NCBI RefSeq assembly: GCF_000091305.1
Contig: NC_013929.1
Coordinates: 5,394,001 to 5,458,000 of the forward strand
Source: Streptomyces scabiei 87.22
GTDB taxonomy: Bacteria; Actinomycetota; Actinomycetes; Streptomycetales; Streptomycetaceae
DNA: 64,000 nt
Direction of reading: 5' to 3'
The notes below the pieces were generated by a model, which saw only the letters and a list, made by a program, of their open reading frames with translations, ran no database searches and was not told the DNA's origin. The position numbers and the translations under genes were made by a program. Shown piece after piece: positions 34,555 to 48,285 of the stretch (its first letter is position 1; the number at the start of each line of letters is the position of its first letter).

Positions 34555-35817
34555 GTGCAACCTACGACACCCGAGCCCTATTCCGCGCCCGGTACCGCCG
34601 CCTGGCCGCTGGTCGCGGTGCCGGCCAACCCCGACCAGCGCGAACCCGAGGACACCGCGCCGGTCGAAGCCGCCGCGCCCTCGGACACACCCCTGGATCC
34701 GGAGCCGACACCGGGCTCGGCGCTGCTGGACGAACTGCGCGCGAAGATAGCCAGGTTCGTGATCCTGCCCTCGCCGGAGGCGCTGGACGCGGTCACGCTG
34801 TGGGTGGCGGCGACGCATCTGCAGCCCGCGTGGCAGCACGCACCGCGCCTGGCGGTGGTCGGGCCGGCGAAGCGGTGCGGCAAGTCGCGGCTGCTGGACG
34901 TGCTGACCGAGACGGTCCACGAGCCGATGCTCACCATCAACACCACGCCCGCGGCCATCTTCCGGTCCATCACCGAGGAGCCGCCCACCCTGCTGGTGGA
35001 CGAGGCGGACACAATCTTCGGCACGCCGAAGCAGGCGGAGAAGAATGAGGAGATGCGTGGTCTGCTCAACGCCGGCCACCAGCGCAACCGGTACGTCACC
35101 CGCGTCGTAGGCAACGACCACACCCCGCACCGGTTCGCCACCTTCGCCATGGCCGCGCTCGCGGGCATCGGCGACCTGCCCGACACGATCATGGACCGGT
35201 CGGTGGTGATTCGTATGCGCCGCCGGGCCGAGGGCGAGAGCGTCAAGCCCTTCCGCTCCCGCCGTGACACCCCAGCCCTGCACGACCTGCGCGACCGCCT
35301 CGCCGCCTGGGCCCGGCCGCTGCTGGACGAGGCCGCCGGCCTGGAACCGGCGATGCCGGTGGAGGACCGAGCCGCCGATACCTGGGAACCCCTGGTGATC
35401 GTCGCCGACCTCGCCGCCGGCCCTTGGCCACGCCTCGCCCGCGCGGCGTGCGAGGAGATGGTGGCAGCCGAAGTGGCGGCCGAGGAGGACCACCCCAGCT
35501 CAGCGCGGATCCTGGCCGACATCCGCCGGGTCTTCGTAGCCCAGCGGGAGGTCGACAGCCTCTCCACGGACGAACTCCTGCACCACCTGCGCCAGGACCT
35601 GGAAGGCCCGTGGGCGGAGTGGGGTCGCAAGGGGCTGGGCCCGCGTGAGCTCGGGTCGCTGCTGCGCGCCTTCGACATCAGGCCCGGCAACGTCCGCCTC
35701 GCCGACGGAACCCAGCGCAAGGGCTACACGCGCAACAAGTTCCTCGACGCGTGGCGGCGCTACTGCCCCACCGTTCACTCAGTGAACGCCGAACCCACCA
35801 CCCCAGCCTCGGGCTGA
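34555..35817 (+). CDS. DUF3631 replication ATPase
   Basis: The 420-residue protein starts at GTG 34555 with AGAGGAG upstream. After a Pro-rich start it has Walker A VVGPAKRCGKSRLLDV near residue 100 and Walker B PTLLVDEADTIFG near 143. The sensor region HRFATFAMAALAGIGDLPDT follows, and a C-terminal DUF3631 domain (ELLHHLRQDLEGPW; GSLLRAFDIRPGNVRLADGT). This family serves as a helicase/primase partner in Streptomyces mobile elements, so it is the likely replication protein of element 2. Flanked by repeat-rich non-coding DNA on both sides. Confidence 0.82.
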   Translation: MQPTTPEPYSAPGTAAWPLVAVPANPDQREPEDTAPVEAAAPSDTPLDPEPTPGSALLDELRAKIARFVILPSPEALDAVTLWVAATHLQPAWQHAPRLAVVGPAKRCGKSRLLDVLTETVHEPMLTINTTPAAIFRSITEEPPTLLVDEADTIFGTPKQAEKNEEMRGLLNAGHQRNRYVTRVVGNDHTPHRFATFAMAALAGIGDLPDTIMDRSVVIRMRRRAEGESVKPFRSRRDTPALHDLRDRLAAWARPLLDEAAGLEPAMPVEDRAADTWEPLVIVADLAAGPWPRLARAACEEMVAAEVAAEEDHPSSARILADIRRVFVAQREVDSLSTDELLHHLRQDLEGPWAEWGRKGLGPRELGSLLRAFDIRPGNVRLADGTQRKGYTRNKFLDAWRRYCPTVHSVNAEPTTPASG

Positions 35818-36210
35818 ACCCCGCCTCCCCCAGTGACCGTCCCTGCCGTCCCTGCCGTGATCCCGCAGGTCAAACGGCATGCGGCCGGGACGGAAACCAG
35901 GGGCAAGACGGCAACGCGATCATGAAGAGCGTGCTGCCACCAACCTGACGCTGCCCCGATCCGTCTTGTGCCGTCCCGGGCGTCCCCGCCGTATCACCGC
36001 AGGTCACGACGCTGTCGGCCGGGACGGCAAGACGGATCCGATCCGTCCACGGCCACCGAACCGCAGCACCCGCCGCCCGTGTGTGCCCCCAGGGCGCGTC
36101 GGCGCCGCCAGGACGGAACACCAGCCCTCCTGCCGTACCGGCCCTGACCTGCGCATGCAACGGCCAAGACGGCAAAGACGGACCACGCCACCACCTCAGG
36201 AGAACCCCGC
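35818..36210. repeat. 393-base non-coding region with large inverted and direct repeats (ori/oriT candidate)
   Basis: Two related blocks (35845-35893 and 35970-36034) share the pieces CCGCAGGTCA and CGGCCGGGACGG. Block 2 also forms an inverted repeat: 35958-35979 matches 36019-36038 with only a 2-base gap. A third degenerate copy with CAAGACGG lies near 36165. No gene fits. The location between the replication gene and the DUF2637-Mob genes suits an origin of replication or transfer. Confidence 0.55.
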
Positions 36211-37062
36211 TTGACCACCCTCTCCACACCCACCCACCGGGACCATCGTCCTGACGGAGGGCGGCCGATGACGACCAAGCAGGCGGCCGAGCGGTACGCG
36301 CTCATCGCGGCGGGAGTCGTCATCGTGGCGCTCACCGCCAGCGGGTTCTGGCTGTCCTACGCGCACCTCGCCGAGGTCGCCGGACAGCACGGCCTCAAGA
36401 GCTCCCCGGTCCGCCAGTGGGCCTGGCCGGCGACTCTGGACGCGTTCATCGTCGCGGGCGAACTGCTCATGCTCCGCGCGGGCCTGCGCCGGGTGACCGA
36501 CGGCTGGGCCATCGCCCTCACCGCCACCGGATCGGTCGGCTCCATCGCACTCAACGTGGCCGGGGTCAGCGGTACAGGCAAGGCCAGCGCCGTGCCCCTG
36601 CTCGACTATGTGGTCGCTGCGGTTCCTCCGACCGCCGCGTTGCTGGCCTTCGGTGTCCTGATGCGGCAGATCCACCAGCTCGTCGACCAACCGGCCGGCC
36701 ACCCGGACGCTGCTTCCGTCCAGGCGCCGGTACGACCGGTCACCGGGGCCGCCGAGCCATCGACTGAGCCCGTACGGCCTACTGAGCCTCCGGCCGCCGG
36801 TTCCGTCCAGCCGACGGAACCACCGCCCGAGGTTTCGGAGAGCAAGCCGCGCGGTGGCCGTCCGCCAAAGGCCACGCTCGCAGAGCTCGTGGCGATCGGC
36901 CGGATAGCCCTCGCTGAGCACGGCACACTCAGCCGGTCCCTACTCCGGAAGGCAGTTAAGGACAGGGACCTGACGATCAGCAGTCGGCGGCAGACCGAGG
37001 TGATGGAGACCCTCCGGCCCGACATCGAAGCCGCCGCCAAGACCGCTCCGAGCAGCGGCTGA
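36211..37062 (+). CDS. DUF2637 membrane protein
   Basis: The 283-residue protein starts at TTG 36211 with AGGAG upstream. It has four membrane segments in residues 27-155 (ALIAAGVVIVALTASGFWLS; ATLDAFIVAGELLMLRAGL; GWAIALTATGSVGSIALNVA; VVAAVPPTAALLAFGVLM). A disordered Pro/Thr-rich stretch and a C-terminal HTH-like region follow (LVAIGRIALAEHGTLSRSLL; RRQTEVMETLRPDI). DUF2637 proteins accompany transfer genes in Streptomyces plasmids and integrative elements. Confidence 0.82.
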   Translation: MTTLSTPTHRDHRPDGGRPMTTKQAAERYALIAAGVVIVALTASGFWLSYAHLAEVAGQHGLKSSPVRQWAWPATLDAFIVAGELLMLRAGLRRVTDGWAIALTATGSVGSIALNVAGVSGTGKASAVPLLDYVVAAVPPTAALLAFGVLMRQIHQLVDQPAGHPDAASVQAPVRPVTGAAEPSTEPVRPTEPPAAGSVQPTEPPPEVSESKPRGGRPPKATLAELVAIGRIALAEHGTLSRSLLRKAVKDRDLTISSRRQTEVMETLRPDIEAAAKTAPSSG

Positions 37063-37078
37063 CCGGAAACCCAGCGGG

Positions 37079-37102
37079 GTGACCGGAACCCCTTCCGGTC
37101 AC
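37079..37102. promoter_or_regulatory. Perfect 10-bp inverted repeat (oriT or terminator candidate)
   Basis: GTGACCGGAA (37079-37088) and TTCCGGTCAC (37093-37102) with a CCCC loop lie between DUF2637 and mobC, next to a further GACCGGAA copy at 37061. Inverted repeats just upstream of mob genes often mark the transfer origin; a terminator is the alternative. Confidence 0.5.
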
Positions 37103-37222
37103 CCCGGCCAGCCGCCTATCGGCACCGCTCGCTCATCCACAACTGTGGATGGCGCGCCGACCACCACCACTCCGCCAGCCCTTCCCCGCCGACCCGCAAC
37201 CGCCCTTTCCGGAGAACCGCCC

Positions 37223-37957
37223 GTGACGCACGACCCGCATCGCTCCGACCGCACTCCCGACGACCTGCTGCCGCTGGCGAAGTCCCCTACGCTGATGGGG
37301 CGTTTGCGCCGCGCGTTCGGACGGGCTGCCCCTGGCGGAGCCAGTAGTACCCCGAGTCCGACTCACGGCCGGACTTCGGGGATCTCCGCCCCGGGGGTGG
37401 CGGAGACGGCCCCGCGCCAGGGGGCGCCGGACCAGGGGGTCGGAGCCGAGGGCGGCTCCGACCTGGACACGCTGCACTCCGTCCAGCAAGCCGTCCTGCG
37501 CCCCGAAGACAGCGCAGCCATCGCCGCCGGCGAGCCTGCCGTGCAGAGCGTGCAGCCCACGATCCGCCGCTTCACCGGCACCAAGCGCAACGACCGTGTC
37601 GGCCCGCTGCGTTTCACCGGCGACCAGCGAGCCCATCTCCAGCAGGCCGCTGCCGAGCACGGCTATAAGGGCGACTCCGGCTTCGCCGCCGACATCGTCC
37701 TCGCCTTCATCACCGGCCGGTTCACCGCCAACCTGCCCCTGTCCGAGGACCGACGCCGCACCCACCACTTCCGTGTTCAGGTTCTGCGCCAGCTCAACCG
37801 GATCGGCGTCAACGTCAACCAGATCGCCCGCGCCCTCAACAGCGACCACATCCCACCCGACATACGCCAACGGCTGACCGAACTCCACCACCTGCTGGAG
37901 CTGATCGCCGAAGCCCTGCGCCAGCCCGTCGACCCGGAGACGGAGGCATCCGCGTGA
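37223..37957 (+). CDS. mobC: MobC-like relaxosome protein
   Basis: The 244-residue protein starts at GTG 37223 with GGAG upstream; the frame is open further but without a ribosome site. The C-terminal third has FRVQVLRQLNRIGVNVNQIA near residue 190, the MobC signature (LNRIGVNVNQIARALN). The N-terminal two thirds are Pro/Gly-rich and disordered. Such proteins help the relaxase open oriT. The stop overlaps the relaxase GTG. Confidence 0.82.
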   Translation: MTHDPHRSDRTPDDLLPLAKSPTLMGRLRRAFGRAAPGGASSTPSPTHGRTSGISAPGVAETAPRQGAPDQGVGAEGGSDLDTLHSVQQAVLRPEDSAAIAAGEPAVQSVQPTIRRFTGTKRNDRVGPLRFTGDQRAHLQQAAAEHGYKGDSGFAADIVLAFITGRFTANLPLSEDRRRTHHFRVQVLRQLNRIGVNVNQIARALNSDHIPPDIRQRLTELHHLLELIAEALRQPVDPETEASA

Positions 37958-39669
37958 TCGCCGCCATCAAGCCCGCCGGGGCCAATACCCGTGGCCTGCT
38001 TGCCTACCTCTACGGCCGCGGAACCCACGACGAGCACTTCGACCCGCACATCGTGGCCGGCTTCGCGATGCTCGGCATGCCCGACCCCGGCCGTGACGAG
38101 AACGCCACCCTCACCGAACTCGCCCGCTACCTCGACGAGCCCGTGCGGCTGCGCAACAGCGAGTTCGGCAAGCCTGTCACCGACCACGTCTGGCACTGCC
38201 CGGTGCGTACCGCGCCCGAGGACCGCTACCTCTCCGACGCCGAGTGGGGCGAGATCGCCCAGCGCATCGTCCAGGCCGCCGGCATCGCTCCGGCCGGTGA
38301 CGACCTGGCCTGCCGCTGGATCGCCGTACGCCACGCCGACGACCACATCCACATCCTCGCCACCACCGTCCGCGAAGACGGACGCCGCCCCAAACTCCAC
38401 GACAGCGGAATCCGCGTCGGCGACGCCTGCCGCGAGATCGAGAAGGACTACGGGCTGCGCCGCCTGAAGAAGGGGGACCGCACCGGCGCCCGCCGTCCCA
38501 CCCAGGCCGAGATGCACAAGGCCGAACGCCTCGGCTGGGACCAGACCAGCGCCGAGTGGCTCCAGGACCGCATCCGTGCCGCCATCCCCCACGTCACCGG
38601 TGCCGAGGAATTCATCGCCTACCTCGAAGCCAGCGGCATCGAGGTCCAGGTCCGGCGCGGCCCGTCAGGCGACCTCCTCGGCTACGCCGCCAGCCGCCCC
38701 GGCGACGTCAACGAGGCCGGCAAGCAGATCTACCACCCCGGAAGCAAGATCTCCCCCGACCTCTCCCTGCCCAAAATCAAGGCCCGCCTCGAATCCAGCC
38801 GACCCGAAGAACACCCCACCGCCCGCCGCAACCACCCCAACACCCCCTGGCACCAAGCCACCGACGCCCTCGACACCCTCCACACCGACCTCGCCGACGA
38901 CATCCACGCGCAGGCCCACATCACCGCCCTCGGTGAACTCCTCGAAGCCACCGCCCAGAAGACACCCACCCATATGCGCGCCGATCTCCGGGCCGCCTCC
39001 AAGGCGTTCGCCCGCGCCCAGCGTTCCCGGGTACGGGCGGAGGACCGTGCCGCCCACGCTCTGCGCATCGCGGCACGCGACATCGTGCATACCGCCACCG
39101 GCCCTGACGGCAGTGCCTTGGCCGCCCTGGTCACAGCCCTGGTCTGGGCCGTCATAGTCGCCGGGCGCTGGCACGAAGCGAAGCACCACGCCCACCAGGC
39201 CGACGCCGCCCGCCAGGCCGTCCAGCACCTCCAGACAGCCGCCGACCGCGCCCTCACCTCGACGCTCGCCGAACTCACAGCCCGGCCACCCAAGGAGGCA
39301 GCCCGCCGCGTTCTGGCCGGCGACGTACGAGCAGCCGTTCCCGACCACGCCGAGCGCATCCTCGCCGACCCGGCCTGGCCCGCGCTCGCCACCGTCCTCG
39401 CCGACGCCGAAGCCCGCGGCCACCAACCCCACCAACTCCTCAAGGAAGCCGCCGCCCAGCGCGAGCTGACCACAGCCCGCCAACCCGCCCGCGTCCTCAT
39501 CACCCGCATCCAACACACCGGCCGTAACTCAGCACCCAACCGCCGAGCCGAAGCCGCCCGCCTGCAGACGACCACGACAGGCTCGACCCCCACTCAGCAG
39601 ACCGGAAACGGTCGGCTCCCAGCGGCGACTCCATCGCCTACCGAACAGCAGCGCCGACAGCGCCGGTAG
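37954..39669 (+). CDS. Relaxase / mobilization nuclease
   Basis: The 571-residue protein starts at GTG 37954. The N-terminal relaxase domain has AGANTRGLLAYLYGRG near residue 10 with the candidate nucleophilic Tyr, and the metal-binding HADDHIHILA at 127-136. A long helical tail (residues 300-560) includes one hydrophobic stretch near 385-405. It would nick oriT and lead single-stranded transfer. No conjugation pore gene is present in element 2, so it must rely on host or partner functions. Confidence 0.88.
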   Translation: MIAAIKPAGANTRGLLAYLYGRGTHDEHFDPHIVAGFAMLGMPDPGRDENATLTELARYLDEPVRLRNSEFGKPVTDHVWHCPVRTAPEDRYLSDAEWGEIAQRIVQAAGIAPAGDDLACRWIAVRHADDHIHILATTVREDGRRPKLHDSGIRVGDACREIEKDYGLRRLKKGDRTGARRPTQAEMHKAERLGWDQTSAEWLQDRIRAAIPHVTGAEEFIAYLEASGIEVQVRRGPSGDLLGYAASRPGDVNEAGKQIYHPGSKISPDLSLPKIKARLESSRPEEHPTARRNHPNTPWHQATDALDTLHTDLADDIHAQAHITALGELLEATAQKTPTHMRADLRAASKAFARAQRSRVRAEDRAAHALRIAARDIVHTATGPDGSALAALVTALVWAVIVAGRWHEAKHHAHQADAARQAVQHLQTAADRALTSTLAELTARPPKEAARRVLAGDVRAAVPDHAERILADPAWPALATVLADAEARGHQPHQLLKEAAAQRELTTARQPARVLITRIQHTGRNSAPNRRAEAARLQTTTTGSTPTQQTGNGRLPAATPSPTEQQRRQRR

Positions 39670-39962: not shown

Positions 39963-40508
39963 TCACGACCGCCCGGACAGCCTGGGGGCGAGCAGCTCCA
40001 GTACTTCCTCCCAGCGGTAGCGGTCGGCTCCGCCGCCGGCCTTGGGGCGGTGGGGTTCGTACGAGCCGATCAGGACGCCCATCTCACGCAGCTGCTCCAG
40101 GCTCCTGCGGTATGCGGGGTGGGCGGCCTGGGCGGAGTTGAGGTACGGCAGTACGGCGATGGGGACGTCCATGGCGGGTGCTTCGCACAGGATGCCGAGG
40201 GCGAGGTTGTCGGAGATTCCGGCGGCCCATTTGTTGACGGTGTTGAAGCTTGCCGGGGCGACGGCGATCGCGTCGGCGGGCCGGGTCGGGCGCGGTTCGC
40301 CCGCCGAGCGCCAGGCGGAGCGGATGGGGCGCCCGATCTGGTTCTCCACCGCCTCCACGTCGAGGAAGCCGAGCCCTTGTGGTGTGGCGACGACGCCGAC
40401 GTCCCACTGCCGCTCGTGCGCTGCGGTGATCAGCTTGCCGACGTCCCCGGCGACTCCGGCCGCGCAGACCACGATCTGCAGGAACGGCTTGTCGGGCTGG
40501 TCACTCAC
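39963..40508 (-). CDS. Flavoprotein, HFCD/PPC-decarboxylase-like
   Basis: The 181-residue protein starts at GTG 40508, overlapping the XRE stop. It has a Rossmann-like N-terminus (LQIVVCAAGVAGDVGKLITA) and VAPASFNTVNKWAAGISDNL near residue 110. The latter matches the FMN- and substrate-binding clamp of phosphopantothenoylcysteine decarboxylase and related Cys decarboxylases, though the usual Met in PxMNxxMW is replaced. It probably oxidises or decarboxylates a small substrate linked to the divergent operon. The substrate is not evident. Confidence 0.75.
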   Translation of the reverse strand: MSDQPDKPFLQIVVCAAGVAGDVGKLITAAHERQWDVGVVATPQGLGFLDVEAVENQIGRPIRSAWRSAGEPRPTRPADAIAVAPASFNTVNKWAAGISDNLALGILCEAPAMDVPIAVLPYLNSAQAAHPAYRRSLEQLREMGVLIGSYEPHRPKAGGGADRYRWEEVLELLAPRLSGRS

Positions 40509-41803
40509 GCAGGCACTCCCAGTTGGCGGCTGAAATGGTGCAGCTCGGGCAGGGCCCGGCGGCGGTCGCGGGCTGCCATGTCGGCGACCAGTTCGCGTAC
40601 GGCCGGGCGACGGATGTCCTGTGCCGCGCAGCTCTCGGCGATGCGCAGGGCCTGGTAGCCGTCGGCGAGTCTGCCCTGCTGACTGTAGGCGCGGGCGGTC
40701 TCCACCCAGAGGGCGGCTCGGCGCTCGGGGACGGGAATGTGCCGGCGCATGAGGGGGCGTGCGGTCTGCAGGGCTATGCCGGCGTCGCCGAAGGAGACGG
40801 CCGCGCTGACCTCGTGCAGGGCGACGTTGGTGGGGCTGAAGTTCGCCCAGGCGTCCGGTTGGTCGAAAGCGACGTAGCGGGCCACTTCCCTGGCCTCGGT
40901 GAGGAAGTCCCGGGTGGTGTCGCGGTCGCCGTTTCTGCTGGCGGCGGTCGCCCCGCGCAGCAGGAGCAGTCCGACCGCCGCCAGGTAGCGGGGGGAGCGC
41001 TGGTCGTAGGAGCCGGTGAGCTGGTCGGCGGTGTGGCGGACCATGTTCACGGCCTGGGCGGTGTGCTTGTCCCGTACGAGGACGTGGGCGTGCACGCGGA
41101 CGCTGGCGGCGAGGACGACCGGGTCTCCGGATCGTTCCGCCTCGGCCATGGCCCGACCGGCCGCGAGCCAGGCGTTGCCCTGGTCGGCTCGTTTCAGCAG
41201 CAGGCTCACCGATGTCTGGTAGGCGGTCGCGAGGAGCCCGGACGCCTCCGCCGAGCCGGAGGAACCACCGTCGGCGGCCAGGCGCAGGTCGGCGATCAGC
41301 CCCGGCAGGGCCTGCTCCAGTTCCGCGTAGTCGCACACGTAGAACATCCGGCGTACTGCCCGCAGCCGGTCCCGCAGCTCGTCGATGCCCAGGGCTTGTC
41401 CGGTGGTGGCGGGGCTTGGGCCCGGCATCAGAACCTGGATCAGGTCGTGATGCGCGGTGGTCGACGACGATGACGGCGACGGCGGGGCCGCGAGCGCGGC
41501 CACGCTCGCGGCGAGGAAGGTACGGCGGTGCATGTCCTCTGCTCCGGGCTCGGCGGCGGGGCCGGTGTCAGTAGCGGCTGCGAGGCCGAGACGGTGCGGC
41601 GGAATGTCCAGCACCTGCGCGACTTCGCGCAGCGTGCGCACGTCCTCCGTGCCCCTGCCGCTTTCCAGACGGCTCACCTTCGACTGGTGATACCCCAGTG
41701 CGGCGGCCACGTCCTTCTGCGAGCGCCGCTGTAAAGCACGTGCCTGACGGATCACTTCGCCGATCCGTCTCGCCTCGTTCTGTTCTTCGGCCATCTGCGC
41801 CAC
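40505..41803 (-). CDS. XRE regulator with TPR-like sensor domain
   Basis: The 432-residue protein, probably from GTG 41803 with AGGAGG four bases away, has an HTH at residues 14-70 (QARALQRRSQKDVAAALGYH; QSKVSRLESGRGTEDVRTLR). An Ala-rich linker and about 300 residues of helical repeats like TPRs follow (TAYQTSVSLLLKRADQGNAW). Such Streptomyces regulators are often paired with a neighbouring anti-sigma-type ATPase, as here on the other strand. It probably controls the divergent operon. Confidence 0.78.
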   Translation of the reverse strand: MAQMAEEQNEARRIGEVIRQARALQRRSQKDVAAALGYHQSKVSRLESGRGTEDVRTLREVAQVLDIPPHRLGLAAATDTGPAAEPGAEDMHRRTFLAASVAALAAPPSPSSSSTTAHHDLIQVLMPGPSPATTGQALGIDELRDRLRAVRRMFYVCDYAELEQALPGLIADLRLAADGGSSGSAEASGLLATAYQTSVSLLLKRADQGNAWLAAGRAMAEAERSGDPVVLAASVRVHAHVLVRDKHTAQAVNMVRHTADQLTGSYDQRSPRYLAAVGLLLLRGATAASRNGDRDTTRDFLTEAREVARYVAFDQPDAWANFSPTNVALHEVSAAVSFGDAGIALQTARPLMRRHIPVPERRAALWVETARAYSQQGRLADGYQALRIAESCAAQDIRRPAVRELVADMAARDRRRALPELHHFSRQLGVPA

Positions 41804-41896: not shown

Positions 41897-41970
41897 CCAG
41901 CACACGGCGTAGTCCAGCTTGCCTCCGGAGCGGTTGCGTGGAGCAGCCGCACCGATCCAGGAGGCAGCTC

Positions 41971-42402
41971 ATGGAAGCGCACCAGATCCGATTCTCCGTT
42001 CACGGCACGGCTGCCGCCGCCCGCTCCGCGCGGCAGCAGCTCGCGAACGGGATACGACGCTGGGACGCCTCCCTCGACCAGGACCTGCTGAACACGGCAG
42101 AACTGGTCGCCGCCGAGCTGCTGACGAACGCGGTACGGCACGCGGGCCACGGCCCGATCTCGGCCGGCGCCCGCCTCGACGGCGAGCGTCTGCTGATCGA
42201 GGTGACCGATGCCAGCCACACGGTCCCGCGAGCCGGACTGCCGGACATGGAGGCAGAGGGCGGGCGCGGCCTGTTCCTCGTCGCCGCTCTGGCCGATCGC
42301 CACGGAGTCGACCCGCTGCCGTCCGGCAAACGCTGCTGGGCCGAGTTCAAGGTCGGCGGTCCTCTCCAGCCCTCACGACACGTTCCTCTGCAAAGGAGTT
42401 GA
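41971..42402 (+). CDS. ATP-binding anti-sigma (RsbW/SpoIIAB-like) protein
   Basis: The 143-residue protein starts at ATG 41971 with CAGGAGG upstream. A HATPase_c_2 domain is visible, with the N box TAELVAAELLTNAVRHAG near residue 45 and the G1 box GGRGLFLVAALADRHG near 105. Proteins like this inhibit alternative sigma factors or act as partners of XRE proteins in Streptomyces. It heads the block A operon, with 3 bases to the next gene, so it probably tunes expression of the pathway. Confidence 0.78.
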   Translation: MEAHQIRFSVHGTAAAARSARQQLANGIRRWDASLDQDLLNTAELVAAELLTNAVRHAGHGPISAGARLDGERLLIEVTDASHTVPRAGLPDMEAEGGRGLFLVAALADRHGVDPLPSGKRCWAEFKVGGPLQPSRHVPLQRS

Positions 42403-42405
42403 CGG

Positions 42406-43728
42406 TTGACAGCCGTACGGATCCCTCCAGTCGCCGCCGAAGTGGTGGCCATCCGACCCGGGAGCCCTCTCACCGGCTCCGTCACGGTCGACGGGTCCAA
42501 GAACGCAGCCCTGCCGCTCCTGGCCGCCGCGGCGGCGCTGCACCGCCCGGTGCACCTGGGCAACGTCCCCGCGAACGCAGACGTCGAGACGATGCTCGCC
42601 CTGCTCCAGCAGGCCGGCTGGCACACGACTCGACCCGTCAGCGACCCGCAGACCGCGGTGATCCTGCCGGGTCACAAGCCCGAGGCCGGGCCCGACCTCG
42701 ACATCGCCGCCCGCATCCGGGCCTCGTACTACCTCGTCCCCGCCCTACTCGGCACGTACGGGCGTGCCCGGCTCCCCTGGCCGGGCGGCTGCCGGATCGG
42801 GGAACGCGGCATGGAGCAGCACTTCAAGGTCTACGAACGCTTCGGCGACCGCACGACCGTCGACGACCACGGCTACGTCGTGGAAGCAGCCGGCACTCCC
42901 CGGGCCGGAACCGTTGCGATCACACTGCCCTTCCGCTCCCGAGGCGCGACCATCGCCGCTCTCCTGCGCGCGGTCGTGGCCGGACGGCCACTGCGGCTGG
43001 GGATGCCCAACCTCTCGCCGGAAGTGCTCGCTGTCGTGGAAGCGTTGCGGGCGGCTGGCTGGCAGTGCCGAGTGAGCGAGGCGCTTCTCGCCCTCGCGCC
43101 GTCCTTGTCCGTTCCTCCGGAGAGCATCGTCTGGCGGGTGCCCGGCGACAAGATCGAGGCCGGGACTCTGGCGTGCGCGGTCGCGGTCACAGGCGGCGAC
43201 GCGCGCATCTGCGGCGTACGCGCTGACGATGTCGTCCCCTTGGTCAGGGCCCTGCGATGGCTCGGGGTCCCCGCCGACATGGAGGACGACGTACTCACCG
43301 TCCGAGCGCGAGACAGCCGTCCCACCAGCCGGTCACTGCGAGCCGTCGCTTCCCTCGCCCCCAGTGGTCTGGACGCCGACTTCGAACCCTCCCTGATGGC
43401 CTTGGCCCTCACCCGCTCCGGCACCCACCTCTTCTCCGACACCATCAACCCCGGCCGCCACGGCAACCTGCTGCCGCAGCTGGCCCGTCTCGGTGCCGTG
43501 ATCCAGGAACTGTCCTCCACCAAGTGCCGTCTCACCGGTCCGCAGCAGTTGACCGGGGCCGGAGTCGAGGCCACCGACATCCGGACGGGCTCCGCCCTGC
43601 TCATCGCCGGCCTGACAGCGCACGGTGTCACCACCCTGGGCGGCCTCGACCAGCTCCGACGGGGCCACGCCGACCTCCCCATCAAGCTGTACGCCCTCGG
43701 CGCCGACATCTGCGAGGTCACGCCATGA
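42406..43728 (+). CDS. MurA/NikO-like enolpyruvyl transferase
   Basis: The 440-residue protein starts at TTG 42406 with AAAGGAG upstream. It has the EPSP/MurA double fold: DGSKNAALPL with the active Lys (residue 32), WPGGCRIGER with the reactive Cys (residue 129), an Asp/Glu stretch LDADFEP near 325, and ATDIRTGSALLIAG with Arg near 390. MurA forms enolpyruvyl-UDP-GlcNAc for cell wall. NikO/PolA relatives transfer enolpyruvate to UMP in nucleoside antibiotics. Because it sits in a mobile operon with nucleotide enzymes, the second kind of role is favoured; the acceptor is unknown. Confidence 0.83.
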   Translation: MTAVRIPPVAAEVVAIRPGSPLTGSVTVDGSKNAALPLLAAAAALHRPVHLGNVPANADVETMLALLQQAGWHTTRPVSDPQTAVILPGHKPEAGPDLDIAARIRASYYLVPALLGTYGRARLPWPGGCRIGERGMEQHFKVYERFGDRTTVDDHGYVVEAAGTPRAGTVAITLPFRSRGATIAALLRAVVAGRPLRLGMPNLSPEVLAVVEALRAAGWQCRVSEALLALAPSLSVPPESIVWRVPGDKIEAGTLACAVAVTGGDARICGVRADDVVPLVRALRWLGVPADMEDDVLTVRARDSRPTSRSLRAVASLAPSGLDADFEPSLMALALTRSGTHLFSDTINPGRHGNLLPQLARLGAVIQELSSTKCRLTGPQQLTGAGVEATDIRTGSALLIAGLTAHGVTTLGGLDQLRRGHADLPIKLYALGADICEVTP

Positions 43729-44960
43729 ACCGACAGTTACGGCAGGTCATCGCCACGACCGACGTCCACTCCGCCTTCGCTTCCCCCGCACCGATGGTCG
43801 CCCACCTCCACGCCGCCAGGGCCGCAAGCCTGATCGTGGACTGCGGCGACTTCTTCGAAGGCAGCGGCTTCTACCGCCTCGGCCAGGGCCAGATCGAGCA
43901 CGAGATCCTCACCAGCCTCTACGACTTGCTGGCCCCCGGCAATCACGGTTGGCGGCATCATTTCGAGCCGGGGCTGCGCGAGATGACCGTGTGCGCCAAC
44001 ACGACTGACGACGCTGGCAAGCCCCTCTTCGACCGCGTACGCATCGAGCAGATCGCCGGCCGACGCGTCGCCGTCACCGCAGTGATCGGAGCCCAGGCGT
44101 TCGACGCGATTCCCGCCGGCGATCGCATCGGGCACCACGTCACCGATCCTGCCCAGGCCCTGCGCGAGGTGATGCTCGAACACCACCACCGCGCCGACAC
44201 CTGGATCGTGCTGTCCCACTCCGGCTTCGACGAGGACCTGAAGCTGGCCGCCGCCTGCCCCTTCGCGGACGTCATCTTCGCTGGGCACTGCCACAGCGAC
44301 ACGTACGGTCCCGTAGCCGTCGGCGACACCCTCGTCGTCAAAGGACGCGAACTCGGCATCGGGTACGCCGTCGCAGAGCCCGTCGGGACCGGCTGGGCCG
44401 CCCGCAGGGGCACCTTCCCCAGCTCGCACGGGTGGCCCGAGGGCCTCGCCACGGTGCGAGACGAGATCGAACTCATCGACCGGAGGCTCGCGAGTCCGCT
44501 CGGGAACGTGAACGAGCCCTACCGCAATACCCCGTTGGACCGACACCAGTTGCTGACAGAGGTCGCCGGCCGACTGCACTCGGGCCTCGGCGCGGACGCG
44601 GTCGTCCTCAACGAGACCGCCCTGCGTTCCACGCCTCTCGGCGAAATGCTCACCCTCGGCGACCTGCTGACCATCGAGCCCTTCGACAACCAACTCGTCC
44701 ACGCCCACCTCTCCGACGACCACGCCCAGGACCACGAGAAGCTGCTCAGCGACCTCACCGCACGCGTCGGCCCCCTGGTCACCGCTCCCACTCCTCTGCC
44801 CCCGGCCACGAGCAGCGTGTTGACGACTGACTACCTCGCCAACAGCCACCTCGGCGGACGAACACATCAAGCCGGACTACGGCTCAGCCAAGCCGTACGA
44901 AGCGTCCTGGCCACACCCCTGGCAGGCACCGCCCCCACCGTCGCAGGAGGCGAGCGATGA
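43725..44960 (+). CDS. Intracellular 5'-nucleotidase-like metallophosphoesterase
   Basis: The 411-residue protein starts at ATG 43725, overlapping the upstream stop. The UshA-type metal motifs are in order: TTDVHSA, DCGDFFEGS, APGNHGW, VLSHSGF, and AGHCHSDTYG. A C-terminal domain with VVLNETALRSTPLGEMLTLG and EPFDNQLV fits the substrate-binding 5'-nucleotidase domain. Unlike UshA it has no signal peptide, so it should act in the cytoplasm on a nucleotide or nucleotide-sugar made by its neighbours. GNHGW in place of GNHE/D is a small departure. Confidence 0.82.
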   Translation: MNRQLRQVIATTDVHSAFASPAPMVAHLHAARAASLIVDCGDFFEGSGFYRLGQGQIEHEILTSLYDLLAPGNHGWRHHFEPGLREMTVCANTTDDAGKPLFDRVRIEQIAGRRVAVTAVIGAQAFDAIPAGDRIGHHVTDPAQALREVMLEHHHRADTWIVLSHSGFDEDLKLAAACPFADVIFAGHCHSDTYGPVAVGDTLVVKGRELGIGYAVAEPVGTGWAARRGTFPSSHGWPEGLATVRDEIELIDRRLASPLGNVNEPYRNTPLDRHQLLTEVAGRLHSGLGADAVVLNETALRSTPLGEMLTLGDLLTIEPFDNQLVHAHLSDDHAQDHEKLLSDLTARVGPLVTAPTPLPPATSSVLTTDYLANSHLGGRTHQAGLRLSQAVRSVLATPLAGTAPTVAGGER

Positions 44961-45496
44961 TCCTCACCGGGCCCGAGATCACCGCCGCTGCCCACGACGG
45001 ACGCCTGACCATCGCCCCCTTCGAACCGGAGCAGGTCAACCCCAACAGCTACAACGTCCGCCTCGGCCCCACCTTGCTGACCTACACCGACACCGTGATC
45101 GACGCCCACCGCCCCAACCCCACCCACGAGATCACGATCGGGAAGAGCGGATACGTACTCCGGCCCGGCGAGCTGTACCTCGGACACACCGTCGAACAGG
45201 TCGGCTCCAACACCTACGTACCGCTGCTCTTCGGCCGCTCCTCCGTCGGCAGGCTCGGGCTGTTCGTCGAGATCACCGCACCGATCGGCGACATCGGCTT
45301 CCACGGCCAGTGGACGCTGATGCTCTCCCCGATCCGCCCGCTACGGGTGTACGCGGGCATGCGCATCGGGCAGATCATGTTCTTCGTCTCCACCGGCTCC
45401 ATCGCCCCCTACCAGGGCAAATACCAGGACGCCGTCGGCCCGCAGCCCTCCGATTACTGGCGCGACACGGCCCCGCTCAAGGCGGTCGCCTCGTGA
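44957..45496 (+). CDS. dCTP-deaminase-like protein A (lacks catalytic Glu)
   Basis: The 179-residue protein has the deaminase/dUTPase jelly-roll fold. GRSSVGRLGL at residues 93-102 keeps the Ser and Arg used by dCTP deaminases to bind phosphates. But the position of the catalytic Glu reads TLML (Met122) and the His before it reads VEITA (Glu105). The next gene has the opposite pattern. Alone it is predicted inactive in deamination. It could be the phosphate-binding half of a mixed trimer, or bind nucleotides without reaction. Confidence 0.8.
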   Translation: MILTGPEITAAAHDGRLTIAPFEPEQVNPNSYNVRLGPTLLTYTDTVIDAHRPNPTHEITIGKSGYVLRPGELYLGHTVEQVGSNTYVPLLFGRSSVGRLGLFVEITAPIGDIGFHGQWTLMLSPIRPLRVYAGMRIGQIMFFVSTGSIAPYQGKYQDAVGPQPSDYWRDTAPLKAVAS

Positions 45497-46029
45497 TCCT
45501 CACCGGCCCCGCGATCAGCGCCGCCATCCAGGCAGGCGAGATCACGATCGACCCGTACGACCCTGCCCGCCTCTCCCCGAACGCCTACGACTGGCGACTC
45601 GGCGACACCATCCGTATTTGCGACGGAGACCTGGACGCAGCCGTCCCCACCGAGTGCGCCGAGCAGACGATCCCCGCCGCGGGCCTGGTTCTGAAGCCGG
45701 GTGTTCTCTACCTCGGCGTCACGCTGGAGAGGACGGGCTCCGAGTTGTACGCGCAGATGCTCAACGGCGATCGGACCATCGGTGCGCTCGGCATCTGGGT
45801 CCACGTCTCCGCCCCGCTGGGCCACCAAGGCCATGCCATCCGCTGGACCCTGGAGATCCGTGCCGCCCGGCCGGTTCGCATCTACGCGGGCATGACCTTC
45901 GGCAAGCTCGTCTTCCTCAGCGCCTTCGGCACGCCGGCCAGCTACCAGCTGCAGGGCGCCAAGTACGCGGCGACGGACGGCATCGACATCTCCCGCCTCT
46001 ACGAAGAGAACCCCGGAGGAGTCCGATGA
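45493..46029 (+). CDS. dCTP-deaminase-like protein B (keeps Glu, lacks GRSS site)
   Basis: The 178-residue protein starts at GTG 45493, overlapping protein A. The N-terminus MILTGPAISAAI is nearly the same as in A (MILTGPEITAAA), so the pair arose by duplication. It keeps WVHVSA and the catalytic Glu in WTLEI (Glu121), but the phosphate motif reads GDRTIGALGI (92-101), losing both Ser and the second Arg. Deaminase active sites are made by residues from adjacent subunits, so A and B may work only together. Confidence 0.8.
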   Translation: MILTGPAISAAIQAGEITIDPYDPARLSPNAYDWRLGDTIRICDGDLDAAVPTECAEQTIPAAGLVLKPGVLYLGVTLERTGSELYAQMLNGDRTIGALGIWVHVSAPLGHQGHAIRWTLEIRAARPVRIYAGMTFGKLVFLSAFGTPASYQLQGAKYAATDGIDISRLYEENPGGVR

Positions 46030-47141
46030 CCCCGCAACCGACCTCTGGGCCGCTGGCCGCCACCCTGCTGGATCTGCCCGTCGGAAGCCCGGGAGGCAGC
46101 GTCGAACTCTTCCTCGACCTCTACACGGGCGAGCAACCGCTCATCCCGGCGCGGGCGTTCATGCTCGCCCCCACCGGCCCCCGACCTCCCCTCCGGGCCG
46201 GCCTCGACCTCCTCCATGTCCCCGGGAAGTGCCTGGAGGGCCCAGCCTTCAGCCGATACGTAGCCGCCCTGCGCTCGGCACTGACGGCCGCGATCGACCC
46301 GACCCGGATCGACGTCCTGCACCTGCAGCACCTCACCTTCGGCGCCACCCCCGCCCTGATCCGCGCGCTCCCCGCACACCCCCGCATCGCGCTGGTCCAC
46401 GGCACCGACCTGCTGTATGCCGAGGCCCACCGCGACCAGCTCCAGGTACTGCACGAGACGACGAAGGCCGCCGACGCCATCGTTGTCCCCACCAACGCGA
46501 TGGCCGACCAACTCCGCAAACTGGTCCCGCTGGTCAACCGCCGCAAGATCACCCACATCCCTTGGGGCATCCCCGACCACCTGATCACCGACCCACCGGC
46601 CCGGCCTCCCCGCTCGCCGACGAGCCATCTGCGGCTGTTGTACGCGGGTCGACTCACGGCCGAGAAGGGCGTCGAGGCCCTGGTGAAGAGCCTGGCCTCG
46701 GTACCGGGAATCGAACTCAGCGTCGCCGCACCCCAAGCCCACTTCCACACCCTGACCCCGCTCCTGCAACGAGCCGGCGTACGAGCCCGCTACCTCGGCT
46801 GGCTCCGCCGCCCACAGCTGTGGAAAACCTTCACCGAGCACGACCTCCTGGTCATGCCCTCCACCACCCTGGAGGCCATGGGCCTGGTCGCACTGGAGGC
46901 CCAAGCCTGCGGCCTCCCCGTCCTCTACCAACCCGTACCCGGCCTCAGCGAAGCCCTCGCCGCCTCCGGCGTGGCAACCGACTTCACCAACCCCGCCGCC
47001 CTCGCCCGCGACCTGGACCGGCTACGCACGACACCTGGCCTGCTCCCGGCCCTCCGTCAGGCGGGCCACGGGAACGCCGCCCGCTACCCGCTCTCCGCCA
47101 CCGCCCAGGCCCTGGCCGACCTGAGCCGCCAGCTCACCTAG
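46026..47141 (+). CDS. GT4-family glycosyltransferase
   Basis: The 371-residue protein starts at ATG 46026, overlapping the upstream stop. The GT-B fold shows SPGGSVELFLDLY near residue 20, a C-terminal LRLLYAGRLTAEKGVEALVK with the nucleotide-sugar region near 205, and EAMGLVALEAQACGLPVLYQ, the E-x7-E motif with acidic catalytic residue near 300. No membrane segment, so cytosolic. It may attach a sugar to the product of the enolpyruvyl transferase pathway. Donor and acceptor unknown. Confidence 0.85.
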   Translation: MTPQPTSGPLAATLLDLPVGSPGGSVELFLDLYTGEQPLIPARAFMLAPTGPRPPLRAGLDLLHVPGKCLEGPAFSRYVAALRSALTAAIDPTRIDVLHLQHLTFGATPALIRALPAHPRIALVHGTDLLYAEAHRDQLQVLHETTKAADAIVVPTNAMADQLRKLVPLVNRRKITHIPWGIPDHLITDPPARPPRSPTSHLRLLYAGRLTAEKGVEALVKSLASVPGIELSVAAPQAHFHTLTPLLQRAGVRARYLGWLRRPQLWKTFTEHDLLVMPSTTLEAMGLVALEAQACGLPVLYQPVPGLSEALAASGVATDFTNPAALARDLDRLRTTPGLLPALRQAGHGNAARYPLSATAQALADLSRQLT

Positions 47142-47241
47142 AACGACCAGCGCCAACTGCCGTCCGACACGCCATTGCCCCGCCCCACCCACCCCCATCA
47201 CTACGCTGACCGGCGGGATGCCCACGGCGAACAGGGAGACC

Positions 47242-48285
47242 ATGACGTACTGCACCGACCACATCGAAACCCTGCTCGACGAAGGCGTCCGCGACAAGGT
47301 CTACCCCGGCGCCGTCTGGGCCGTCGGCGACGCCTCGGGCATCCGGGCCCAAGGCACCACAGGAGTTCTCGACCCCGACGAACCGAACGCTCCGATGCGG
47401 CCCGACACCGTCTTCGACGCCGCGAGCCTCACCAAGATCCTCGCCGTCTGGTCCTCCGTCGGAGCCCTGTGGGAGGAAGGCAAACTCGACCTCGACTCCC
47501 CACTGGGCGAGTTCTGGGCGGAGGTCGACGGCCACCCGCTCGCGCCTGTGACTGCTCGCCAACTCCTCACCCACACCGCTGGTGTCCCGCTACGGGCCCA
47601 ACTGAAGAACCTGTACGGCACCGACCCCCAGGACATCCGCGACGGCGTACTGCACGAAGCCCTGCACCGCCCGCCGGGCGAGGCCGTCGAGTACACCGAC
47701 CGAGCCGCCCTCATCCTCGGCTACCTCGCCGAACACCTCTCCGGTCAGCCCCTCGACCAGCTCGCCACGGAACGGACCTGGCAGCCCCTGGGCATGAACT
47801 CCACCCGCTTCGGCCCCCTACCCGCCGAGACGGCCGCCCGATGCGCGCCCACCGAACTCGACCCGGACACCAACACCCACCTCAAGGGCATCGCCCACGA
47901 CTTCTCGGCCCGCCTCCTCGGCGGCGTATGCGGCATCGCCGGCGCCTTCACGGTCCTCGACGACCTCGCCCGCTTCCTGCGTTACATGCTGGACCAGAAC
48001 AGCGTCCAGGAGCGGGCAGGATTTGGGTCCGCGTGGACGGCGGAGTCACTCACCACGCAGACAGGCTCCCTGACTCCCGCGCGCGGTCTCTTCTGGCACC
48101 CCGCACCCAGCGTCGATCCTTCCGACGGCATCTGGGTCCACTACGGCTTCACGGGGACCGGCATGTGGATCTCCCCCCGGCTCCAACGGTGGGCGGTCCT
48201 GCTGACCAATAAGCTCTACTACACCCGCGACCGACAACCCCTGACGGACATCCGCAACACCTTCCGCGCATCTGTCTTCAACTGA
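47242..48285 (+). CDS. Serine hydrolase, class C beta-lactamase/esterase-like
   Basis: The 347-residue protein starts at ATG 47242 with AGGGAG. The triad is visible: Ser-x-x-Lys in AASLTKIL near residue 65, Tyr in VEYTDRAALILG near 155, and HYGFTGTG near 302. There is no signal peptide. Members hydrolyse esters, amides or D-amino acid peptides. Separated from the GT4 gene by 100 bases, it may be in the same transcript and could tailor or inactivate the cluster product. Confidence 0.8.
   Translation: MTYCTDHIETLLDEGVRDKVYPGAVWAVGDASGIRAQGTTGVLDPDEPNAPMRPDTVFDAASLTKILAVWSSVGALWEEGKLDLDSPLGEFWAEVDGHPLAPVTARQLLTHTAGVPLRAQLKNLYGTDPQDIRDGVLHEALHRPPGEAVEYTDRAALILGYLAEHLSGQPLDQLATERTWQPLGMNSTRFGPLPAETAARCAPTELDPDTNTHLKGIAHDFSARLLGGVCGIAGAFTVLDDLARFLRYMLDQNSVQERAGFGSAWTAESLTTQTGSLTPARGLFWHPAPSVDPSDGIWVHYGFTGTGMWISPRLQRWAVLLTNKLYYTRDRQPLTDIRNTFRASVFN

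Follow-up and report, generated by a model that had tools for sequence, protein, structure and literature searches.

Do two adjacent dCTP deaminase-like genes that each lack part of the usual active site encode two enzymes or the parts of one? This question is raised by a 64,000-nucleotide stretch of Streptomyces scabiei 87.22 (NC_013929.1, positions 5,394,001 to 5,458,000; the whole stretch is referred to as the window and positions are counted from its first nucleotide), which sits in a 10.1-Mb genome on a single contig and carries gene A (44957..45496, + strand, 179 amino acids, ATG start) followed by gene B (45493..46029, + strand, 178 amino acids, GTG start). An earlier note on this DNA proposed that the two proteins have lost complementary active-site residues and that a mixed trimer could restore complete sites. 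The residue patterns and the distribution of the genes argue strongly that A and B are obligate partners and, with moderate confidence, point to one hetero-oligomer formed by both.

A and B are paralogues within the dCTP deaminase (DCD) family, as identified by Pfam and by alignments and, for B, also by AlphaFold2 and Foldseek. Both match Pfam DCD PF22769 (146.6 bits for A and 83.7 bits for B, cut-off 27), and against the NCBIfam equivalog TIGR02274 (cut-off 92.8) A scores 104.8 although it lacks the catalytic Glu and B scores 62.1 although it has it. The two proteins share 44% identity over 153 amino acids with near-identical N-termini (ILTGP), and the genes overlap by four nucleotides (GTGA), both as first described. 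They are separate open reading frames in different frames and do not form the single chain of the two-domain DCD (PRK07559). The best PDB match of A is 4xjc (E 3e-24). The AlphaFold2 model of B has the DCD fold (mean predicted local distance difference test score, pLDDT, 72.5) and its best Foldseek match is the bifunctional dCTP deaminase-dUTPase (DCD-DUT) of Mycobacterium tuberculosis, 2qlp (E 8e-11). Fold and family are thus common to A, B and the DCD structures of B. halodurans (4xjc), M. tuberculosis (2qxx/2qlp) and M. jannaschii (1ogh/1pkh). An ordinary dcd gene is present elsewhere in the genome (G000:C1:4812283). Among named genomes, the sequence relatives are found nearly all in Streptomyces, with a few in Kitasatospora, Streptacidiphilus and others.

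The active-site residues are divided between the two proteins. A retains the phosphate motif GRSSVGRLG (residues 93-101, 45233..45259, + strand), the motif-III Asp (Asp112, in the column of E. coli Asp128; 45290..45292, + strand) and the C-terminal lid, and has Met122 (45320..45322, + strand) in the column of the catalytic Glu (E. coli 138). B retains the catalytic Glu as Glu121 (45853..45855, + strand), carries a degenerate phosphate motif, GDRTIGALG (residues 92-100, 45766..45792, + strand), has His111 (45823..45825, + strand) in the Asp128 column and lacks the motif-IV Gln and the lid Gln. When the E. coli chain of 1xs4, which is titled as an E138A mutant, was aligned to A, Met122 fell on the mutated residue 138; the computational tie to E. 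coli covers the Glu column alone and consists of this alignment and the titles of 1xs4, 2v9x and 2j4q, together with M. jannaschii 3gf0. For S111, R115, D128, motif IV and the lid, both name and role follow the E. coli literature. Neither the Glu nor GRSS is displaced to another part of the respective protein, and their columns are ungapped in MAFFT alignments of relatives. The residues assigned by the earlier note were therefore all recovered, including the exchange at the usual His position, which is occupied by Glu105 in A and His104 in B. This exchange was dropped as a key change; the column varies by pair type (Glu, His or Asn in A, His or Gln in B).

Known DCDs carry the full residue set in each chain, whereas here the set is split over two genes. 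The combination of Glu and GRSSxxR in one chain, by which a dCTP deaminase is recognized, is found in neither protein (Met in A, GDRTIGA in B), and the same is true of the combination of motif-III Asp and Glu that marks a bifunctional DCD-DUT (Asp and Met in A, His and Glu in B). Among relatives of the window pair, here called type I, the division is nearly invariant. All 88 A rows carry the R, S, S and R of the phosphate motif and the Asp, and the Glu column holds Met in 87 and Gln in one; the lid Gln is found in 87 and replaced by Arg in one. All 93 B rows carry the Glu, His in the Asp128 column and Lys in place of the motif-IV Gln. These counts are based on rows of at least 150 residues (10 shorter ones were dropped). 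Near-copies and rows from partial loci are included, and the number of distinct sequences is 80 for A and 85 for B; one additional row, sorted with B, proved to be a frameshifted piece of A. The residue split between A and B is more than chance.

Four further types of pair were found. Type II comprises nine loci from the genus search, eight with tandem genes and one with approximately 3-4 kb between them, and is a mixed label in that L113, L115 and L116 branch with other types. Type III comprises seven loci from the same search (L101-L107); here the A-like domain is part of a larger dikinase-like protein, and B lies some kilobases away. Plasmid records yielded type IV (Rhizobium etli and R. 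sullae) and type V (Nonomuraea, Nocardiopsis and Streptomyces pFRL6), and also a pair in Embleya. The Embleya record (sp. NBC_00888, L183) holds a third DCD-like match (W03:C1:5133036-5133485) approximately 11-13 kb from its pair.

In 35 pairs that span the types, type I included, every A has Met or Gln in the Glu138 column, Asp in the Asp128 column and the lid Gln, whereas every B has Glu in the first of these columns, His, Asn or Gln in the second (Asn in 6/35) and no lid Gln. The same rule holds in all four pairs found afterwards in another actinobacterial family. The phosphate wall behaves differently: S111, R115 and the motif-IV Gln were lost solely in B of types I and III (19/19 rows), while B of types II, IV and V retains GRSS, Arg115 and the motif-IV Gln, so that B would have lost its phosphate motif later, within types I and III. 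The loss of the Glu, seen in every A, is thus accompanied by loss of the phosphate motif of B in types I and III only.

A and B are separated from ordinary Dcd by a branch with 100/99 support. In a further phylogenetic tree, of 83 rows, three single-copy Paenibacillaceae proteins with all residues intact are sister to every paired protein (100/92), making them the nearest unpaired relatives of the pairs. These three are encoded on plasmids (L180:9001-9522, L186:8001-8519 and L187:8001-8522). The B rows form one clade (99/92), and the A rows fall into two parts in the best tree; a single A clade appears in 6% of bootstrap trees and is not rejected as a constraint (approximately unbiased test, p 0.4). 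One duplication would be the simplest history, which the tree does not prove.

Both genes are under purifying selection, with a median pairwise dN/dS (nonsynonymous to synonymous substitution rates) of 0.28 for A and 0.25 for B over 35 loci. The mean column entropy is 0.00 in the phosphate motif and 0.03 in the nucleoside hairpin of A, and 0.34 and 0.05 in the corresponding segments of B. Constraint is therefore relaxed on the phosphate motif of B but not on its hairpin, which is what a site composed of a B hairpin and an A phosphate wall would predict.

The co-occurrence of the two genes was examined by a census in which B was the query against 392 genomes of the same genus and the matched regions were checked (matches were listed down to E 1.5e-13). 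A gene was counted as complete if it was covered from residue 6 or earlier to at least residue 145. Among the matches listed there are 54 type I loci and both genes are complete in 48 of them; of the other six, L079 has a frameshift in A and L098 one in B, L099 is a partial pair where a contig ends, and L100, L117 and L118 are fragments of B; the "A" counted at L117 is the ordinary dcd gene. In the genome_contigs set, which overlaps with the genus set in some strains, both genes are complete in 37/44 loci, the exceptions being two contig ends (L063 and L064), a frameshift in A (L067) and four fragments (L075-L078). Over both sets, the 13 exceptions consist of three frameshifts, three contig ends and seven fragments. 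One B match (G038) contains a single TGA. B fragments of 39-72 amino acids in G004, G097, G169 and G070 were omitted from the census, and an A match near the end of contig G276:C1549 lies in a region that was not retrieved, so pairing was impossible there. The earlier note had named homologues occurring alone as evidence against its proposal. Fragments and contig ends apart, every intact A or B adjoins its partner gene, which is frameshifted at L067, L079 and L098. These frameshifts, beside which the partner is still open, may be sequencing errors or decay.

Gene order is near-constant across the loci scanned, and in the 36 of 40 scanned loci where the overlap could be measured it is 4 nucleotides in 33 and 1 nucleotide in two, the remaining locus being broken. 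Counting the window genome, a complete type I pair is present in 44 of the 392 genomes of the genus. When 394 genomes of the class were searched with a B profile, pair-type matches (E < 1e-40) came from five, all of the same genus, and pairs were found in 4/150 genomes of another family (that of G555), each with two adjacent matches. Two other families gave 0/149 and 0/35 genomes with a pair, in searches that had no positive control. Phage records gave 247 matches to A, all below 60% identity, and a single match to B over 74% of its length; a scan of viral_contigs with the B alignment gave 21 pattern matches and no confirmed relative. A phage origin was set aside on these searches, which yielded no phage A/B pair. 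A role as a defense system was likewise rejected, as no PADLOC family was matched at E 0.001 by A, B or five neighboring genes.

What could such a pair do? The residue split, the adjacency, the tree, the selection on both genes, the nucleotide- and nucleoside-related neighbors described below and the sharing of active sites between the subunits of trimeric dUTPases (PMC12524310) together suggest a divided duplicate of a DCD or DCD-DUT whose halves act as one hetero-oligomer on a pyrimidine nucleotide intermediate. We consider the chances of this proposal to be evenly balanced. The assembly, stoichiometry, reaction and product set out here are our interpretation of what was observed directly, namely the residue split, its conservation, the co-inheritance and the operon. 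The ancestor would have been an anciently duplicated nucleotide enzyme of the DCD or DCD-DUT type whose catalytic residues were divided after duplication. The deaminase Glu would have disappeared from A, with the phosphate wall (GRSSxxR and motif-IV Gln), the C-terminal lid and the motif-III Asp all retained there; B would have kept the Glu on its frozen nucleoside hairpin without the Asp and the lid Gln, and in types I and III its phosphate wall would also have gone.

The simplest assembly would be an A2B trimer. The Glu follows the motif-III hairpin in the sequence, so the Glu of B would meet the phosphate wall of a neighboring subunit, and in types I and III that wall could come from A alone. 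The B hairpin on an A wall would then form the only site with the deaminase Glu, the A/A interface would form a nucleotide-binding or nucleotide-hydrolyzing site, and the third interface would be dead. With the Asp missing from B and the Glu from A, an A2B trimer would contain no ancestral site; the two reactions, deamination and hydrolysis, may have been separated, and a modified sugar may be what the sugar pocket of B accommodates. The complex would convert a pyrimidine nucleotide that arises within a small nucleoside-type pathway, to which the enolpyruvyl transferase, nucleotidase, GT4 glycosyltransferase and beta-lactamase-fold enzyme of the window would also belong. The proposal of the earlier note is thereby narrowed. 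The losses in A and B do complement each other in Glu versus phosphate wall (types I and III), but the motif-III Asp is missing from every B examined, so no mixture unites Asp and Glu on one hairpin, and instead of several restored sites the geometry allows a B hairpin on an A wall at no more than one of the three interfaces of a mixed trimer.

Several observations weigh against an A/B hetero-oligomer. Asp and Glu never share a hairpin, so the composite site would be unlike any known DCD site. The A hairpin is as frozen as that of B despite its missing Glu, for which the composite site gives no reason; a second site at the A/A interface, binding or hydrolytic, may be one. The B proteins of types II, IV and V, with their phosphate walls retained, could act alone, and at three loci an intact gene stands next to a frameshifted partner. 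The losses go back to few events on the tree (approximately one for each residue set), which means that the many loci cannot be counted as independent trials, and co-inheritance in an operon is equally expected of two separate enzymes. Finally, the AlphaFold2 model of A, built from 38 rows of close relatives, reached a pLDDT of 38 and was set aside.

The same residues can be read in favor of two separate homotrimers, with A as a nucleotide pyrophosphohydrolase and B as a deaminase acting in sequence and no mixed complex. The split falls exactly between the dUTPase-type Asp and the deaminase Glu, and an Asp-to-Asn change in motif III of a dUTPase is described as bringing activity near zero with unchanged binding (PMC4827122), Asn being the residue in 6/35 B proteins. 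B2, B4 and B5 (the B proteins of types II, IV and V) moreover have a phosphate wall of their own. Yet B of types I and III (19/19) has lost Ser111, Arg115 and the motif-IV Gln, so that a B homotrimer would have no recognizable phosphate wall, and that Asp128 corresponds to the catalytic Asp of dUTPases is presumed here. In our judgment, two separate enzymes are rather unlikely. It is also conceivable, though unlikely, that neither protein is still a deaminase and that the pair is a nucleotide-binding, regulatory or new-chemistry module built on the DCD fold. The absence of a complete DCD site from either window protein and the conservation of the A hairpin (entropy 0.03, against 0.05 in B) fit such a module, as do some operons that also encode a zinc protein of the cytidine-deaminase family, beside which a second deaminase might not be needed, and the staphylococcal phage dUTPases that are described as signaling molecules (PMC5593958). 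A pure binding role would leave unexplained that the Glu is kept in every B (35/35, and 4/4 in the pairs found later).

Two further explanations involve no A/B enzyme. A or B might modulate the ordinary Dcd by forming mixed trimers with it and not with each other, and the ordinary dcd gene elsewhere in the genome would provide the partner; both proteins are far from ordinary Dcd on the tree (100/99) yet adjacent to each other, which makes this very improbable. Decaying duplicates or an annotation artifact are hardly credible: broken loci do exist (frameshifts in A at L067 and L079 and in B at L098, fragments at L075-L078, L100, L117 and L118), but decay or artifact is refuted for the type I pair as a group by dN/dS values of about 0.25-0.28 and by motifs that do not vary among dozens of intact loci. 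What was first seen in the window is a real, conserved and widespread arrangement, and among the readings considered the A/B hetero-oligomer is the preferred one.

DCDs are described as homotrimers (PMC10733785, PMC4827122). The closest precedent found for complementary loss after duplication is, by analogy, the monomeric dUTPase of herpesviruses (Epstein-Barr virus (EBV) type), in which duplication and motif loss left one composite site, with motif III from one domain and motifs I, II and IV from the other (PMC12524310). It differs from A/B in being a fused single chain and a dUTPase, not a DCD, and presumably arose by an independent duplication. Prokaryotic dUTPases with a stiff channel are described with AP peptides and a conserved Pro (PMC4827122, section 7), and comparison with them suggests a loss of dTTP feedback.

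Adjacent dcd genes are already in print, which qualifies the earlier note's statement that no such arrangement was known. In the phaseolotoxin cluster of Pseudomonas syringae, the neighboring genes phtJ and phtK are both annotated as deoxycytidine triphosphate deaminase and adjoin phtL, encoding a pyruvate phosphate dikinase-like protein, and the cluster also contains a HAD hydrolase, an adenylylsulfate kinase and an amino acid ligase (PMC3927611). The analysis of the residues was not found in the available text of that paper. Few phaseolotoxin genes have an assigned function according to a 2024 review, which mentions a postulated link between the dikinase PhtL and formation of the N-P bond (PMC11278893), and the function of most of the genes was said to be unknown in 2017 (PMC5453526). 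The likeness lies in two adjacent DCD-family genes within a biosynthetic-type cluster, for phtJ/phtK by annotation. It is extended by type III locus L102, which combines an A3-dikinase fusion, a HAD protein, a small P-loop protein, B3 and an ATP-grasp ligase with a dapdiamide-synthase match; the window operon differs in having no dikinase, HAD protein or ligase. At L102 (3337-5844), and likewise at L101 and L103-L107, a Glu-less DCD domain is fused to a PPDK_N/PEP-utilizer dikinase-like protein.

In the literature searched, which mostly excluded subscription papers, the available texts gave no description of complementary loss in two DCD genes and no known product linked to an operon with a dCTP deaminase-like pair. 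A broader extension, to a general and so far undescribed kind of enzyme, is doubtful but may be worth stating: a heteromeric DCD-DUT (A2B or AB2) with Glu and Asp on different subunits, carried in mobile operons of Actinobacteria and Rhizobium, might act on nucleotide-tethered nucleoside-type intermediates, and PhtJ/PhtK might be of the same type and supply a missing phaseolotoxin step beside the dikinase proposed for the N-P bond.

If true, the A/B hetero-oligomer would show an obligate hetero-oligomer arising from a homotrimer with sites at its subunit interfaces, with surviving intermediates that lead from a single complete enzyme to pairs that divide Glu from Asp and lid and on to pairs in which B has also lost the phosphate wall. 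It would also suggest a testable role for phtJ and phtK of a long-studied toxin pathway. The pair marks a set of unexplored nucleoside-type operons, and it carries a warning for annotation in that A passes the dCTP deaminase equivalog without the catalytic Glu.

The window operon, on the + strand, has a conserved core of six genes, in which A and B were found in 61 out of 61 type I loci; some gaps in the counts of the other genes may reflect contig ends. It opens with an enolpyruvyl transferase (42406..43728, MurA/NikO-like, 51/61 loci), for which 42406 is the longest start and 42442 another; in a PDB comparison it is MurA-like, with NikO as a weaker match. A UshA/SoxB-like nucleotidase of the metallophosphoesterase family (43725..44960, 53/61) precedes A and B, and a GT4 glycosyltransferase (46026..47141, 58/61) and a beta-lactamase-fold protein (47218..48285, 52/61) follow them. 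The beta-lactamase-fold protein is presumably a serine hydrolase or transacylase. Upstream of the operon lie an anti-sigma-kinase-like HATPase_c_2 protein (41938..42402, + strand, 43/61) and a divergent NsdA-like helix-turn-helix regulator (40505..41803, - strand, 34/61; 47.6 bits, below the family cut-off of 75). Four-nucleotide overlaps run through the whole stretch from transferase to GT4 (43725-44960, 44957-45496, 45493-46029 and 46026-47141), so the overlap of A and B does not by itself argue for a complex and was dropped as a special feature of the pair.

Further upstream, DUF3631, DUF2637, MobC-like and relaxase genes (34618-39669) are probably part of an integrative or mobilizable element carrying the operon, and homologues of the relaxase-like gene are found near the operon in 18/61 loci. 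Together with a copy of the operon on a plasmid, these upstream genes suggest horizontal movement. The neighborhoods of the other pair types include TauD, PIG-L, WbqC, GT4 and a ProRS-like protein in some cases and a methyltransferase, NUDIX, metallophosphoesterase and a zinc cytidine-deaminase-family gene in others. The nucleotide- and nucleoside-related members among all these neighbors (nucleotidase, NUDIX, TauD, cytidine-deaminase family and GT4) suggest pyrimidine-nucleotide-based small molecules.

At three loci the run of genes that contains the DCD pair also includes a zinc cytidine/deoxycytidylate-deaminase-family gene (L188:8534-9028, L181:9534-9995 and L178:10576-11511), found in a Streptomyces, a Nonomuraea and a Rhizobium plasmid, with scores of 25.2, 21.3 and 28.5 bits against a Pfam cut-off of 25 that the Nonomuraea gene does not reach. 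A prolyl-tRNA-synthetase-like protein follows the type II operon (L108:4649-6310; L185:12102-13772 is annotated as aminoacyl-tRNA ligase-related); it might serve self-resistance as a second copy or act as an aminoacyl transferase in biosynthesis. Another asymmetric DCD duplication was observed at L142, L143 and L144, which encode the two-domain DCD (PRK07559, Pfam DCD_N). As we read these three loci, its C-terminal domain lacks GRSS and keeps the LE motif; it differs from A/B in that both domains lie in one chain and the loss is one-sided, the N-terminal domain keeping both motifs. The Agrobacterium structure 2r9q, with chains of approximately 330 residues, is probably a two-domain DCD of this kind.

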